DNA from: an uncultured Lachnoclostridium sp.
GTDB taxonomy: Bacteria; Bacillota; Clostridia; Lachnospirales; Lachnospiraceae
Direction: 5' to 3'
DNA: 61,261 nucleotides
Assembly: GCA_946415315.1 (NCBI GenBank)
Contig: CAMKRZ010000018.1
Span: 1-61,261, forward strand
The translations under genes were made by a program, and so were the position numbers. Below are positions 3,236 through 38,995 of the stretch, in pieces. Within the stretch, counting starts at the first letter, position 1. Every line of letters begins with the position of its first letter. The notes beneath the pieces are model-generated. The model ran no database searches and was not told the origin of the DNA. It saw nothing but the letters and a program-made list of their open reading frames with translations.

Positions 3236-5773
3236 ATGGGCTTATACGATTTTCTGAACGACGAACAATACCAGGCCGTAACACACGGAAGCGGCCCTCT
3301 TCTGGTGCTTGCGGGCGCCGGATCGGGCAAGACGCGCGTGATCACGCACCGCATTGCGCACCTGATCCGCGAATGCGGCGTCAGCCCCTACCGGATCCTT
3401 GCGATCACATTTACCAACAAGGCCGCGAACGAGATGAAAGAACGTGTCGCGCGGCTTCTTGACAATGAATACAACGACGTCTGGGTCAGCACGTTCCACT
3501 CCGCCTGCGTGCGCATGCTGCGGAGATTCTGCTCCGGACTCGGTTATGATACGAATTTTGCGATTTACGATACGGACGACCAGAAGCGCGCCATGAAGGA
3601 TGTCCTTCGCCACCTCAACATCGATGTCAAGCAGTTCCCTCCGAAGCAGGTGCTCGCCGTCATCTCGAAGGCGAAAAATGAACTAATCGGGCCGGAGGAC
3701 TTCCGCTCCTCGGACATCGGGCGAACCTGCGACCGCAACATCGCGCGCGCCTACACCGAGTATCAGGAGTTCCTGCAGAAGAACAACGCATTCGACTTTG
3801 ACGATCTTCTGATGAAGACCGTCGAGATGCTGCAGACCAACCATGAGGCGCTTGCCTACTATCAGGATCGCTTTGAACACATTCTGGTCGACGAGTATCA
3901 GGACACAAACACCGCACAGTTTGAGCTTGTGCGCCTTCTCGCGACGCACATCAACCGGGACGGCGAGCCGGAGCACAATCTCTGCGTGGTCGGTGATGAC
4001 GATCAGTCCATTTACAGTTTCCGCGGCGCCAACATCCGCAACATTCTTGACTTTGAGAAGACCTACCCGGACGCAACCGTCATCAAGCTCGAGCAAAACT
4101 ACCGCTCCACCAAGCGCATTCTGGAAGCTGCCAACGCCGTGATCAAAAACAACATGGGCCGCAAGGAGAAATCTCTCCGCACGGACAACGACGAGGGCGA
4201 ACTGGTCCGTGTGACGGAATATCCCTCCGACCTCGACGAGGCGAAAGAGATCGTTCGCGAGATCGGCAAGCAGGTGCGCGACGGTCACAGCACGTACAGT
4301 GACTATGCGATCCTCTACCGCACGAACGCGCAGTCCCGCGCATTCGAGGAACAGTTTGTCTACAGCGGCATTCCCTACCGGCTCGTCGGCGGTACCAACT
4401 TCTACGAGCGCATGGAGATCCGCGATATGCTTGCTTACCTCCGCGTCATTGAGAACGGCAACGATGCCGTGTCCCTGAAACGGATCATCAACGTCCCCAA
4501 GCGCGGCATCGGCGATACGACGGTGGACCGCGTGGACGACTACGCCTATGTCAAGGACATTGCGCTGTATGATGCGCTGTGCAATGCGTCCGATATCCCT
4601 TCTCTCGGATCGCGCGCGATTTCCGGGATCCGCAAATTCACGGAGATGATCGACTCTCTTCGGGCGATGCTCTCCGGGGATGGGTATCATTTGCCGCAGA
4701 TCATCGATGATGTGCTCGCTGCCACGGGGTACGAGGAGGACCTGACCGCTCAGGAGCCCGAGAAGGCAAGCGACCGCATGAACAACATTACCGAACTGAA
4801 GAACAAACTTGCACAGTACGAACAGCAGGCTGACCAGCCGTCGCTGTCCGGTTTCCTTGCGGAAGTCGCTCTCGTCGCCGACATCGACTCGATCGACAGC
4901 GGCTCCGACTACGTCGTGCTGATGACTCTGCACAGTGCCAAGGGTCTGGAGTTCAACCACGTGTTCATCAGCGGTCTGGAGGATGGTCTCTTCCCCAGCT
5001 GCCGGAGTATCGAATCGGATGACCCCGGACTGTCGGAGGAGGAAGGCATCGAGGAGGAACGCCGGCTCTTCTACGTCGGCATCACGCGCGCCATGCAGTC
5101 TCTCATGATCAGTTACGCCGTACAGCGTATGACACGCGGCGAGATGCAGTTTAACCGCCCTTCCCGTTTTCTCTCCGAACTTCCCCGTGAAGTTACGAAG
5201 AAATCCATAGCGGGCGGCTCTTCCTGGAGCGACCGCAATTCCATGCGCGGTTCCGCCGGACGGTACGGCGGTTCCTACAATTCCGGAAGTTACGGCTCCA
5301 ACTCCGCCGGACGCAGCAATTCCTACGGTTCGGGAAGTTACGGCAACCGTTCCGCCGGGCGCGGCGGTTCCTACGGTTCCGGAAGTTACGGTGACAGTTC
5401 TTCCGGGCGCGGCGATTACTACACTTCCGGGGGATACGGCAACCGTTCTGCGGGACGCAGTGATTCTTTCGGCTATGACTCGGACAGCAGTTCCTACGGT
5501 TCCTCCCGAAAGCCCGCAGGTTCCGCTTCCTCCGGCAACGTCGGTGGAAGCTATCGAAGTCCCTACACCAAACCGACAACGCCGGCGCCTGTAGCCGCTT
5601 CTGCTTCCGCACTCGGATACGGAGTCGGTGACCGCGTGAAGCACATCAAATTCGGCATCGGTACAGTTCGGTCAATCACGGCCGGAACGCATGACTACGA
5701 GGTAACCGTGGAATTTGCCGCCGGTGTCAAGCAGATGCTTGCCTCCTTCGCCAAACTGGTAAAGGTGGACTGA
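3236..5773 (+). CDS. pcrA: ATP-dependent DNA helicase PcrA/UvrD
   Basis: An 845-residue superfamily 1A 3'-5' helicase for nucleotide excision repair, plasmid replication and clearing of RecA filaments. Visible motifs: Walker A AGAGSGKT (residues 26-33), Walker B VDEYQDTN (about 219), GDDDQSIYSFRGA (about 255), LEQNYRST (about 285), TLHSAKGLEF (about 565) and FYVGITRA (about 620). The C-terminal Tudor-like domain (about 797-845, GDRVKHIKFGIGTV) that contacts RNA polymerase in relatives is present. The family is usually 720-760 residues; the excess is a Ser/Tyr/Gly-rich insert at about residues 655-785 built of GSYG-type repeats. The ATG follows AAGG with fair spacing. The gene is monocistronic with its own promoter. 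Confidence 0.96.
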   Translation: MGLYDFLNDEQYQAVTHGSGPLLVLAGAGSGKTRVITHRIAHLIRECGVSPYRILAITFTNKAANEMKERVARLLDNEYNDVWVSTFHSACVRMLRRFCSGLGYDTNFAIYDTDDQKRAMKDVLRHLNIDVKQFPPKQVLAVISKAKNELIGPEDFRSSDIGRTCDRNIARAYTEYQEFLQKNNAFDFDDLLMKTVEMLQTNHEALAYYQDRFEHILVDEYQDTNTAQFELVRLLATHINRDGEPEHNLCVVGDDDQSIYSFRGANIRNILDFEKTYPDATVIKLEQNYRSTKRILEAANAVIKNNMGRKEKSLRTDNDEGELVRVTEYPSDLDEAKEIVREIGKQVRDGHSTYSDYAILYRTNAQSRAFEEQFVYSGIPYRLVGGTNFYERMEIRDMLAYLRVIENGNDAVSLKRIINVPKRGIGDTTVDRVDDYAYVKDIALYDALCNASDIPSLGSRAISGIRKFTEMIDSLRAMLSGDGYHLPQIIDDVLAATGYEEDLTAQEPEKASDRMNNITELKNKLAQYEQQADQPSLSGFLAEVALVADIDSIDSGSDYVVLMTLHSAKGLEFNHVFISGLEDGLFPSCRSIESDDPGLSEEEGIEEERRLFYVGITRAMQSLMISYAVQRMTRGEMQFNRPSRFLSELPREVTKKSIAGGSSWSDRNSMRGSAGRYGGSYNSGSYGSNSAGRSNSYGSGSYGNRSAGRGGSYGSGSYGDSSSGRGDYYTSGGYGNRSAGRSDSFGYDSDSSSYGSSRKPAGSASSGNVGGSYRSPYTKPTTPAPVAASASALGYGVGDRVKHIKFGIGTVRSITAGTHDYEVTVEFAAGVKQMLASFAKLVKVD
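5220..5560 (+). repeat. Degenerate repeat encoding the Ser-Tyr-Gly-rich insert of PcrA
   Basis: Units of about 36-48 bp encode variants of GSYGSGSYGNRSAGRG. The unit recurs about five times with TCCTACGGTTCCGGAAGTTA-like cores. The segment lies between the helicase core and the Tudor-like domain and keeps the reading frame. Confidence 0.8.
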
Positions 5774-36679: not shown

Positions 36680-36708
36680 TTGACATGCAGAAAAGAATGG
36701 TGTATTTT
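36680..36708 (+). promoter_or_regulatory. Promoter of T-box leader and phenylacetate-CoA ligase gene
   Basis: TTGACA (36680-36685) and TATTTT (36703-36708) at 17-bp spacing, with transcription expected near 36715. Confidence 0.8.
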
Positions 36709-36714
36709 GTTTGC

Positions 36715-36992
36715 AAATGCAACGACCGGGAACCAGTACGAAATCAGTTTTCCCTCACAGCGAGCCGGGTTTGGTGTAAGCCGGCACGGAAAGCCTTCCG
36801 AATTCCTCCCGAGAGCAGCATGTTGAACAGCGGTATTTCATCGCTAAGTAGGCATCGCCGGATGCGTCCGTTATCGCGATAGGGTATATAATCTGTACCC
36901 GAACGAGGGTATGCAGTTTTGCATACTGAATTGAGGTGGTACCACGGGTCTAACGCTCGTCCTCTATCGTAGTTAGGGGATGAGCTTTTTTT
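36715..36992 (+). ncRNA. T-box riboswitch, predicted phenylalanine specifier (UUC)
   Basis: A leader that reads uncharged tRNA and controls transcription of the ligase gene. Visible parts: Stem I base GGGA (36728-36731) pairing with TCCC (36807-36810); AGTA loop-E element (36735-36738) opposite GAA (36800-36802); the specifier codon TTC (36803-36805) directly after GAA, which reads Phe; a distal GCCGG/GCCGGC stem with GGTG; then the T-box core TGGTACCACG (36937-36946). The TGGT bulge pairs with an ACCA tRNA end, so a discriminator A, as in tRNA-Phe. The competing terminator is GCTCGTCCTC (36955-36964) with GGGGATGAGC (36976-36985) and seven T. Uncharged tRNA-Phe should open expression. Confidence 0.92.
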
Positions 36993-37120
36993 GTGAGTTT
37001 TCGCGGCAGCATTTCGAGAGTTTGAGCGAAGCGAAAACGAAGCAATGCGGCTTTCGCCGTTTTCCAAGACTCGTCCTCAGGGCATTGTTACACTACTATT
37101 TTTTCACCTGGGAGGCACCT

Positions 37121-38446
37121 ATGAAACAGCCGAAAATCCACAAGATCTACAATCCCGCCATGGAGTGCATGGATCGCTCCAAACTGCGCGAGCTCCAGAG
37201 CGAGCGTCTGCGCGAGACCGTAAAACTCGAGTACGAGCGCGTGCCGCTCTACCGCAAACGCATGGATGAGAAGGGCGTGAAGCCCGAGGACATCAAAACC
37301 GTTGACGATCTGCGCAAGCTTCCGTTCACCGAAAAGACCGACCTTCGCGATGAATTTCCTTACGGCCTTCTGGCTCAGCCGCTCAAGGACATCGTCCGTA
37401 TCCAGGGTTCGTCGGGAACAACCGGCAAGCCCATTGTTGCAGGTTACACGGCAAACGACGTTGAAGTCTGGACAGAGATGGTCGCCCGCGCTCTCACCGC
37501 TGCCGGCGGCGACGCTGACGATGTCATCCAGATCTGCTACGGCTACGGTCTCTTCACCGGTGGACTCGGCGCACACCAGGGCGCAGAACGCATCGGCGCC
37601 ACCGTCATTCCGATGTCAGCCGGCAACACCGAGCGCCAAATGATGATGATGACCGAGCTCGGCGCGACGATGCTCTGCTGCACGCCGTCCTACGCGACCT
37701 ACCTTGCCGAAACGCTCCGCGACCGCGGTCTTCTCGGCAAAGTCAAACTGAAAGCCGGTATTTTCGGCGCTGAGCCCTGGACCGAAGAGATGCGCACACA
37801 CCTCGAGGAGATCCTGGATTTCGACGCCTGCGATATTTACGGCCTCACCGAGATCGGCGGCCCCGGCGTTGCGTTCGAGTGTCTTGAGAAACACGGCATG
37901 CACGTCAACGAGGACCATGTAATCGTCGAGATCATCAATCCGGAGACCGGCGAACCTCTTCCTTACGGGGAGTCCGGTGAGCTTGTTTTCACAACCATCA
38001 CGAAGACCGGTATGCCGATGCTCCGCTACCGCACGCACGACATTTGCCGCCTGATCGCAGAGCCTTGTGCCTGCGGTCGTACGCTCATCCGCATGAGCCG
38101 TCTCACCGGCCGTACCGACGATATGCTCGTCATCCGCGGCGTGAACGTATTCCCGAGCCAGATTGAGTCCTGTCTCGTCGGCCTCGAGGGCGTCGCTCCG
38201 TTCTACATGCTCATTGTCGACCGTGTCAACTCCACCGACAAGCTCGAAGTTCAGATTGAGATGTCCGAGGAGATGTTCACCGATAAGGTCAGCGAGATCG
38301 AACAACTGCGCAGCACGATCACCGAGCGGATCAAGTCCGTCGTCGGCATCGCTGCGAAGGTCACGCTCGTTCCGCCGAAGTCCCTGCCTCGTTCCGAGGG
38401 CAAGGCAAAGCGCATCATCGACAACCGCGGACTCACCAACAAGTAA
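37121..38446 (+). CDS. paaK: Phenylacetate-CoA ligase
   Basis: A 441-residue adenylate-forming enzyme that joins an aryl acetate to CoA using ATP. Family motifs: the P-loop QGSSGTTGKPIVAGYT (about 102-117), CYGYGLFTGG, YGLTEIGGPG (about 240), YRTHDICRL, GRTDDMLVIRGVNVFPSQIE and the C-terminal PRSEGKAKRI with its catalytic Lys. In gut anaerobes PaaK is often paired with indolepyruvate/arylpyruvate:ferredoxin oxidoreductase and a tandem-ACT protein, which is next here. GGGAGG precedes the ATG at 37121. Control by a Phe-type T-box argues for an anabolic role in making phenylalanine from phenylacetate rather than degradation. Substrate choice among aryl acetates is inferred. Confidence 0.92.
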   Translation: MKQPKIHKIYNPAMECMDRSKLRELQSERLRETVKLEYERVPLYRKRMDEKGVKPEDIKTVDDLRKLPFTEKTDLRDEFPYGLLAQPLKDIVRIQGSSGTTGKPIVAGYTANDVEVWTEMVARALTAAGGDADDVIQICYGYGLFTGGLGAHQGAERIGATVIPMSAGNTERQMMMMTELGATMLCCTPSYATYLAETLRDRGLLGKVKLKAGIFGAEPWTEEMRTHLEEILDFDACDIYGLTEIGGPGVAFECLEKHGMHVNEDHVIVEIINPETGEPLPYGESGELVFTTITKTGMPMLRYRTHDICRLIAEPCACGRTLIRMSRLTGRTDDMLVIRGVNVFPSQIESCLVGLEGVAPFYMLIVDRVNSTDKLEVQIEMSEEMFTDKVSEIEQLRSTITERIKSVVGIAAKVTLVPPKSLPRSEGKAKRIIDNRGLTNK

Positions 38447-38469
38447 CTGTCCGAAGCACTGCATTTTCC

Positions 38470-38498
38470 TTACATAACTCCCCGGCATATGATATAAT
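38470..38498 (+). promoter_or_regulatory. Extended -10 promoter for tandem-ACT gene
   Basis: TATAAT (38493-38498) preceded by TGA, with a weak TTACAT (38470-38475) at 17-bp spacing. It would let the ACT gene be expressed apart from the T-box. Confidence 0.65.
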
Positions 38499-38548
38499 GC
38501 AGGAAGGGGTATGAAACTCAGGGGTTTGTATTTCAAAGGAGGTATTAC

Positions 38549-38995
38549 ATGTTTGTACATCAGGTTTCTGTATATCTCGTCAACGCTCACGGAACGCTCT
38601 GCAAGCTGACCGGTCTTCTCAAGGATCACAACGTTGACATTCTCGCTCTGATGATCGCCGACATGGCGGAATTCGGTATCGTTCGTTTCATCGTCAAGGA
38701 TGAGGACATCCAGCCCTGCCTTGACCTTCTCAAGGAAGCCGGTTACTCGGCGCGTAAGAACCATGTTGTCTGCGCAAAAATCCCGAATGAGCCGGGCGGA
38801 CTTCACCGCGCTCTCCAGCTTCTGGAAAATTCCGGCAACAGCATCGAGTATCTCTACTCGTTCAACTACGCAAGCGGCGACAACAGCGCCCTGATCATTT
38901 TCCGCCTTGCAGACCGCGAGGCAGGCGCCAAGCTTCTGATCGAGAACGGTTTCACGATCGCCACGCAGAAAGAGATCGACGCTCTCGGCTGCTGA
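38549..38995 (+). CDS. Tandem ACT-domain protein
   Basis: A 148-residue protein made of two ACT domains (about 1-70 and 72-142). The first reads VYLVNAHGTLCKLTGLLKDHNVDILAL (in parts, residues 8-34), the second VCAKIPNEPGGLHRALQLLEN. ACT domains bind amino acids. Stand-alone tandem-ACT proteins of this type sit beside paaK and ior genes in many anaerobes and probably sense an aromatic amino acid to adjust that pathway; the ligand is not known. AAAGGAGG lies before the ATG. A terminator follows. Confidence 0.9.
   Translation: MFVHQVSVYLVNAHGTLCKLTGLLKDHNVDILALMIADMAEFGIVRFIVKDEDIQPCLDLLKEAGYSARKNHVVCAKIPNEPGGLHRALQLLENSGNSIEYLYSFNYASGDNSALIIFRLADREAGAKLLIENGFTIATQKEIDALGC

Follow-up and report, generated by a model that had tools for sequence, protein, structure and literature searches.

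We analysed a stretch of 61,261 nucleotides (the window: contig CAMKRZ010000018.1 of assembly GCA_946415315.1, positions 1 to 61,261 of the forward strand) from an uncultured Lachnoclostridium sp. whose genome comprises 2.93 Mb in 42 contigs. Within it, a T-box leader RNA precedes paaK, which encodes a phenylacetate-coenzyme A (CoA) ligase-like protein, and paaK is followed by a gene for a tandem ACT-domain protein (Table 1). T-boxes switch genes on when the matching amino acid is short and its tRNA is uncharged. The leader described here appears to respond to phenylalanine (Phe) and probably controls a route that assimilates phenylacetate into Phe through reductive carboxylation. An earlier reading made from the letters alone (the sequence-only reading) had described a T-box with an AGTA/GAA loop, specifier, core and seven-T terminator about 130 bp before paaK, itself followed by a tandem-ACT gene. 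These coordinates hold on the letters and on the RF00230 match, the ATG of paaK lies 128 bp past the seven T, and both genes are as described.

Table 1. Features of the paaK locus (window positions) and of two further T-box loci of the same genome.
Feature	Position	Strand	Evidence
Promoter-like TTGACA-17-TATTTT	36680..36708	+	sequence reading; TTGACA identical in 15/15 aligned genus leaders
T-box leader RNA (RF00230)	36713..36967	+	cmscan, 103.3 bits (gathering score 93)
AGTA, 5' side of specifier loop	36735..36738	+	letters read directly; aligned to Rfam model
GAA-UUC-C, 3' side of specifier loop	36800..36806	+	GAA at 36800-36802; identical in 15/15 genus leaders
Specifier UUC (Phe)	36803..36805	+	comparison with other paaK T-boxes; tRNA discriminator bases
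Antiterminator with T-box core UGGUACC	36933..36964	+	Rfam match, folding; UGGU opposite tRNA-Phe discriminator A
Core TGGTACCACG	36937..36946	+	letters read directly
Intrinsic terminator, 12-pair stem and seven T	36955..36992	+	folding; stem 36955-36985, seven T 36986-36992
paaK, phenylacetate-CoA ligase-like AMP-forming ligase, 441 aa	37121..38446	+	domain, family and structure searches
Tandem ACT-domain protein (PF19571 ACT_8), 148 aa	38549..38995	+	Pfam; related to solved chain 2f06
Isoleucine (Ile) T-box (AUC)	C6:13649-13896; series L022 7804-13896	-	92.6 bits, just under gathering score
Leucine (Leu) T-box (CUC)	C2:100333-100574; L023 10334-10575	-	113 bits, best-scoring T-box of the genome
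Xylose isomerase-like TIM barrel/acyl-CoA ligase fusion	L023 7687-10233	-	PRK12583, 704.2 bits, below cut-off

We confirm that the T-box upstream of paaK is real. The cmscan match covers the full length of the RF00230 model (E 1e-21) and exceeds the gathering score, Stem I carries the AGTA/GAA specifier loop with its codon, and a UGGN antiterminator overlaps the terminator. The terminator hairpin folds at -20 kcal/mol (z -5.63), and none of 200 shuffles was equally good. Its conservation across 15 genus genomes indicates that the leader is more than a chance match.

A PaaK match was found in 21 of the 22 genus genomes, 18 of which, the window genome included, hold a full-length ortholog of at least 74% identity; the other three comprise one genome with a truncated fragment and two whose only relative is at 56-57%. 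Fifteen of these 18 carry the leader, always reading GAA-UUC-C, and the 14 leaders besides that of the window all exceed the RF00230 gathering score. In loci L063 and L064, a basal C-G pair of the lower Stem I helix is replaced by U-A, a compensatory change read by eye. In genome G152, the leader was not seen by pattern in the 574 bases upstream.

A separate observation concerns the Clostridiales-1 RNA (RF01699), which lies between T-box and gene in two of the genus paaK leaders (L064 1625-1807 and L066 1371-1554, both on the minus strand) and likewise inside the Ile T-box leader of the window genome (L022 13449-13626, minus strand). Two further copies stand in tandem at locus L247, downstream of its ligase. 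Its distribution suggests a repetitive RNA element that can enter the leaders of T-boxes.

As for the specifier, the sequence-only reading had proposed TTC, for Phe. The covariance model alone does not give this codon: the Rfam specifier columns fall, with posterior mark 9, on UCC (36804-36806), a serine (Ser) codon one base to the right of UUC. We found thirteen T-boxes in the window genome, nine of which head genes named over an NCBIfam cut-off (valS, tyrS, thrS, trpE, trpB-like, proS, pheS, metG and ileS). Read by eye, the matching codon directly follows GAA in proS, tyrS, valS and trpB-like and CAAA in trpE, and is offset after GAA by one base in thrS, metG and ileS and by two in pheS. With offsets of 0, 1 or 2 in the same genome, the offset cannot decide between UUC and UCC.

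The Phe specifier is supported instead by comparison with other paaK T-boxes and by the tRNA discriminator bases. Outside the genus, among the matches listed, Phe T-boxes directly upstream of paaK were found at loci L165, L185, L197 and L201. The loop of L165, GAAGUUCG, reads GAAG-UUC-G, that of L185 GAA-UUC-C, and those of L197 and L201 GAA-UUC-A; the first three pass the Rfam gathering score and L201 falls below it. UUC is the sole codon common to the four. In the window genome, tRNA-Phe(GAA) carries A73, to which the UGGU of the antiterminator is complementary, and tRNA-Ser(GGA) and tRNA-Ser(UGA) carry G73. Control T-boxes behave in the same manner, with UGGC in both tryptophan (Trp) T-boxes against G73 of tRNA-Trp, and UGGA in the thrS T-box against U73 of three threonine (Thr) tRNAs. 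The tRNAs compared stem from 30 of the genome's 43 tRNA loci plus two others; where ARAGORN had added a pair, we trimmed the acceptor end by eye.

A Ser T-box, by which the control of paaK would be a relic or unrelated to Phe, agrees with the Rfam columns and with the one-base offset of thrS, metG and ileS, which would give UCC here. However, the L165 loop and the GAAUUCA of L197 and L201 share only UUC, and G73 of tRNA-Ser could only wobble with the UGGU that pairs with A73 of tRNA-Phe. On these two grounds we rejected the Ser specifier, which we regard as highly improbable.

Another T-box of the window genome, at C3:106746-106957 (L004 / L028 7670-8958, minus strand), has AAC or ACC as specifier and a UGGA core like that of thrS. 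The gene behind it combines 2'-5' RNA ligase-like and GNAT acetyltransferase domains.

The sequence-only reading had also suggested a survey of specifiers upstream of paaK in related genomes, and this reveals UUC throughout. Every one of the 19 T-boxes that we found immediately before paaK, 15 of them within the genus and four outside it, reads Phe, and none reads tyrosine (Tyr) or Trp. The 80 named paaK loci used in this work are a sample among the matches listed. On the PaaK tree (FastTree, 137 rows, some genomes present twice, rows with little upstream sequence scored as T-box-less), the Phe T-box label needs three changes: one in the genus, one in L185-L197-L201 and one in L165. Either three gains or an ancestral state with losses would fit. 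Among 29 family loci (L032-L060), no same-strand pattern match was found upstream of paaK within at most 1.5 kb, and the 15 of them also scanned with cmscan gave no T-box.

Some candidates were rejected. Pattern matches in L109, L116, L122, L123, L172 and L212 were set aside as chance, judged by eye alone. At L099, a strong T-box (3883-4128, 134.5 bits) was rejected as paaK's own: it carries a Leu (CUG) specifier and precedes a gene that by eye resembles leuA, after which paaK is next on the strand.

The protein encoded by paaK combines the PF00501 AMP-binding fold with the PF14535 PaaK-type C-terminal domain, and its nearest solved structures are the phenylacetate-CoA ligases 2y27, 2y4o and 4r1l. 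An ACT relative was found by tblastn on 72 of the 80 named loci among the matches listed. Judging from gene position, this protein might tentatively be seen as a relay of aromatic amino acid levels to the ligase or to the oxidoreductase described below.

The sequence-only reading depended on an arylpyruvate:ferredoxin oxidoreductase in the genome, and its adjacent genes, iorA and iorB, are present. IorA scores 713.2 bits with TIGR03336 (cut-off 650.9). Directly after it, IorB scores 264.4 bits with NF005325 (cut-off 230) and 177.7 bits with TIGR03334, below the cut-off of 205.8. The genome therefore holds both the alpha and the beta subunit of indolepyruvate oxidoreductase (IOR), by which the aryl-acid (IOR) pathway is recognised. 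All 22 genus genomes have iorA, 21 of them over the cut-off. In related bacteria, it is often a neighbour of paaK, being found on 23 of 40 fetched loci (five of the 40 from the same genus) and on 43 of the 80 named loci among the matches listed.

As for gene order, a same-strand iorAB was found no more than 4 kb upstream of paaK in 65 of the 137 rows, is absent there in 44, and could not be judged in 28 that are too short (65 of 109 judged). In all 15 T-boxed genus genomes, which are draft assemblies, paaK and iorA are on different contigs, and no iorAB stands beside the T-boxed paaK of L165, L185, L197 and L201. The T-boxed paaK genes are thus those separated from iorAB. No acyl phosphotransferase or kinase was recognised by eye among the open reading frames around iorAB; a genome-wide search was not made. 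In some members of the genus, a second iorA is found beside a PaaK paralog of 42-44% identity, at G156:C33, G160:C49 and C76, G154:C13, G150:C15 and G167:C201.

The window genome also encodes a chorismate mutase-prephenate dehydratase (PDT) protein, a DAHP synthase and, by eye, a 3-dehydroquinate synthase. PDT is present in 19 of the 22 genus genomes; these include all 13 with a completeness of 90% or more and a contamination of 5% or less. A missing prephenate route, which the sequence-only reading had raised beside a complete one, was therefore rejected as the reason for salvage. The phenylacetate route is most likely additional to de novo Phe synthesis.

Related operons carry T-boxes of other specificities. 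At three of the 80 named loci among the matches listed, a Tyr T-box (GAA-UAC) heads a same-strand run of ior genes and paaK. In L138, the order is T-box, sodium:solute symporter, AMP-forming ligase, iorA, iorB, paaK and ACT; in L161, the ligase precedes the symporter, with the rest unchanged; and L168 has the ligase, iorA, iorB, paaK and ACT. Some members of these runs were placed by tblastn only. Pfam assigns the symporters of L138 and L161 to SSF and identifies the L168 ligase as AMP-binding, and the NCBIfam models that they resemble all score below cut-off. Relatives of the L168 ligase occur in 147 of 391 class genomes. Pattern and alignment reading placed a Tyr T-box about 100 bases upstream of such a ligase at 7 of 30 fetched loci, with iorA within 1.5 kb past the ligase in five of the seven. 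All ten Tyr T-boxes read UAC. The window genome has its own ligase of this type (68%, C2:219860-221482), with no T-box or ior genes recognised nearby. Furthermore, at L185 the Phe T-box, paaK and ACT are followed after 427 bp, on the same strand, by DAHP synthase, chorismate mutase-PDT and prephenate dehydrogenase.

Acyl-CoA ligase genes stand behind three of the thirteen T-boxes of the window genome, those for Phe, Ile and Leu. The first gene behind the Ile T-box encodes a fusion of helix-turn-helix, cupin and acyl-CoA ligase parts, whose best NCBIfam match is MbcS (429.8 bits, below cut-off), presumably 2-methylbutyryl-CoA synthetase. The same-strand series, which includes a VOR operon, continues with a P-loop ATPase (judged by eye), a ferredoxin-type subunit that scores below cut-off, VorB (532.6 bits, cut-off 399) and beta and gamma subunits. 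In 150 family genomes, this ligase has eight full-length representatives of at least 57% identity, the window genome's included, and all eight have a T-box directly upstream, seven reading AUC and one GUA, for valine (Val). The pair of ligase and T-box recurs in six other family genomes. Of seven such T-boxes scanned with cmscan, three pass the gathering score and four score 74 to 86 bits. At 22 other fetched loci, with shorter or more distant ligases, no T-box was found by pattern. One contig, G075:C62 (L247, L270), has neighbouring ligase copies, one behind an Ile (AUC) and the second behind a Val (GUA) T-box.

In the case of the Leu T-box, the gene behind it is an unusual fusion of a xylose isomerase-like TIM barrel with an acyl-CoA ligase, which led us to rate starvation-induced synthesis as a slightly likelier role of the IOR/PaaK clusters. 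Isovalerate is a possible substrate of this ligase. The Phe, Ile and Leu modules would then share a common logic, in which an acid is activated by a CoA ligase and reductively carboxylated on the way to the amino acid.

Taken together, we favour T-box-controlled assimilation of phenylacetate into Phe, with a probability of roughly 0.8. In this proposal, a Phe-specific T-box would attenuate transcription of paaK and the ACT gene. Uncharged tRNA-Phe(GAA) would pair with the leader at two places, through its anticodon at the UUC of Stem I and through its acceptor end at the UGGU of the antiterminator. From the observed anatomy and conservation of the leader, a shortage of Phe is expected to cause readthrough. 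PaaK would then spend ATP to turn scavenged phenylacetate into phenylacetyl-CoA, the iorAB product would convert this to phenylpyruvate with reduced ferredoxin and CO2, and an aminotransferase would complete the synthesis of Phe. These steps are proposed on account of the enzyme families and their T-box-controlled relatives. The branch would serve as salvage at times when phenylacetate is available, with PDT retained.

Several results weigh against the T-box or against this proposal, besides the Rfam placement of the specifier on UCC. The antiterminator (-9 kcal/mol, z -0.34), which overlaps the terminator, and Stem I when folded by itself (z 0.10) are no stabler than shuffles. The case for these two parts is made by the Rfam model and by conservation. 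No T-box was found by cmscan within the 12.5 kb scanned around the orthologs of G163 and G169. The T-boxed paaK genes are separated from iorAB, but the converse fails: in 40 of the 44 rows judged to be without upstream iorAB no T-box was found, and the T-box is not the rule. The presence of PDT makes the phenylacetate route supplementary, and the need for it is not forced. PaaK itself scores 549.1 bits with TIGR02155, below the equivalog cut-off of 646.3, for which reason we call the protein PaaK-like and treat its substrate as predicted.

This last score also suits an alternative in which the T-box is Phe-specific and anabolic, with PaaK mainly activating 4-hydroxyphenylacetate or indoleacetate and Phe acting as a general aromatic signal. 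The related runs with Tyr T-boxes point the same way, as does the ligase of C. difficile that, in passages of PMC13285125, accepts several arylacetates. Against it stands the uniform Phe specificity of the 19 T-boxes found directly upstream of paaK, and we consider it unlikely.

The direction of the pathway could also be the reverse. IOR would then oxidise phenylpyruvate derived from Phe to phenylacetyl-CoA, PaaK would run backwards to phenylacetate or open phenylacetate degradation, and the T-box would only tie the level of PaaK to Phe; an enzyme named PPFOR, which we take to be of the IOR kind, enters the same discussion. The parts of PMC13285125 and PMC12599254 available to us tell of gut-bacterial IOR or PPFOR assigned to phenylacetate production and of PaaK assigned to degradation, a further point against our proposal. 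However, activation upon amino acid shortage has the wrong sign for Phe breakdown, and AMP-forming ligases favour acyl-CoA formation (passages of PMC13285125). The Tyr T-box runs unite ligases with iorAB, two of them with a symporter, and L185 places paaK beside de novo Phe genes. Moreover, the oxidative pathway described in the same passages of PMC13285125 employs a phosphotransferase and a kinase instead. We therefore find the catabolic alternative quite improbable. The sign of the T-box and the AMP-forming chemistry argue for the synthetic direction, and the contention of the sequence-only reading that this paaK runs opposite to its usual catabolic role is supported by the Tyr T-box runs of ligase, iorAB, paaK and ACT, by L185, and by the ligases behind Ile and Leu T-boxes.

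Comparable systems are known. The aryl-acid pathway of Methanococcus maripaludis uses an ADP-forming acyl-CoA synthetase and, to our knowledge, no T-box. This pathway, although archaeal, likewise takes aryl acids as substrates and brings them into aromatic amino acids through indolepyruvate oxidoreductase, beside a de novo route (Porat et al., as given in passages of PMC4162585). Rumen bacteria make Phe from phenylacetate (Allison 1965, cited in PMC7356843), the same net conversion in gut anaerobes; as cited there, it is physiology without genes or regulation. A Bacteroides AMP-forming arylacetate-CoA ligase adjoining IOR shows the same gene pairing as here; the ligase was assayed and a biosynthetic role suggested (PMC13285125, 2026), the passages concerned contain no T-box, and they also cite work linking the same IOR to phenylacetate production. 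The oxidative Stickland system HpdDEFG-HpdJ-HpdK, in the same passages, similarly applies a 2-oxoacid:ferredoxin oxidoreductase to arylpyruvates, but with a phosphotransferase and a kinase, in the oxidative direction and in the service of fermentation. Lastly, the T-boxes that regulate tRNA ligases and the synthesis of amino acids (Wels 2008, passages of PMC2494555) share the RNA mechanism and the specifier logic.

The words "oxidoreductase" and "acyl-CoA" are absent from the main text of that T-box survey (PMC2494555), and "oxidoreductase", "CoA ligase" and "phenylacetate" from a second one (PMC3766115), supplements aside. T-box control of phenylacetate-CoA ligase or IOR was not found in the literature searched, which did not include two main surveys, Vitreschak 2008 and Gutierrez-Preciado 2009, whose tables could hold an earlier mention. 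The pathway is already known; that T-boxes of matching specificity regulate it, repeatedly and for Phe, Tyr, Ile, Val and Leu, is what we did not find in print.

The direction of IOR and arylacetate-CoA ligase in gut anaerobes is disputed between phenylacetate production (catabolic reading, phenylacetate from Phe, in passages of PMC12599254; work cited in PMC13285125) and synthesis (suggested in passages of PMC13285125). The T-box offers an independent sign of need, since it marks enzymes that are wanted when the amino acid is missing. As this sign can be read from sequence, the direction of flow becomes testable from genomes. In these organisms, the IOR/PaaK clusters read as aromatic degradation or as gut sources of phenylacetate are, in our judgement, likely to be starvation-induced synthesis that consumes phenylacetate, 4-hydroxyphenylacetate and branched-chain acids. 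Phenylacetate is the precursor of the host metabolite phenylacetylglutamine. If our proposal is true, some gut bacteria would be sinks for phenylacetate, and the metagenomic labelling of paaK and iorAB as degradation genes would need revision. Our results suggest that gut-type anaerobes may rebuild amino acids from scavenged acids when these amino acids run short.

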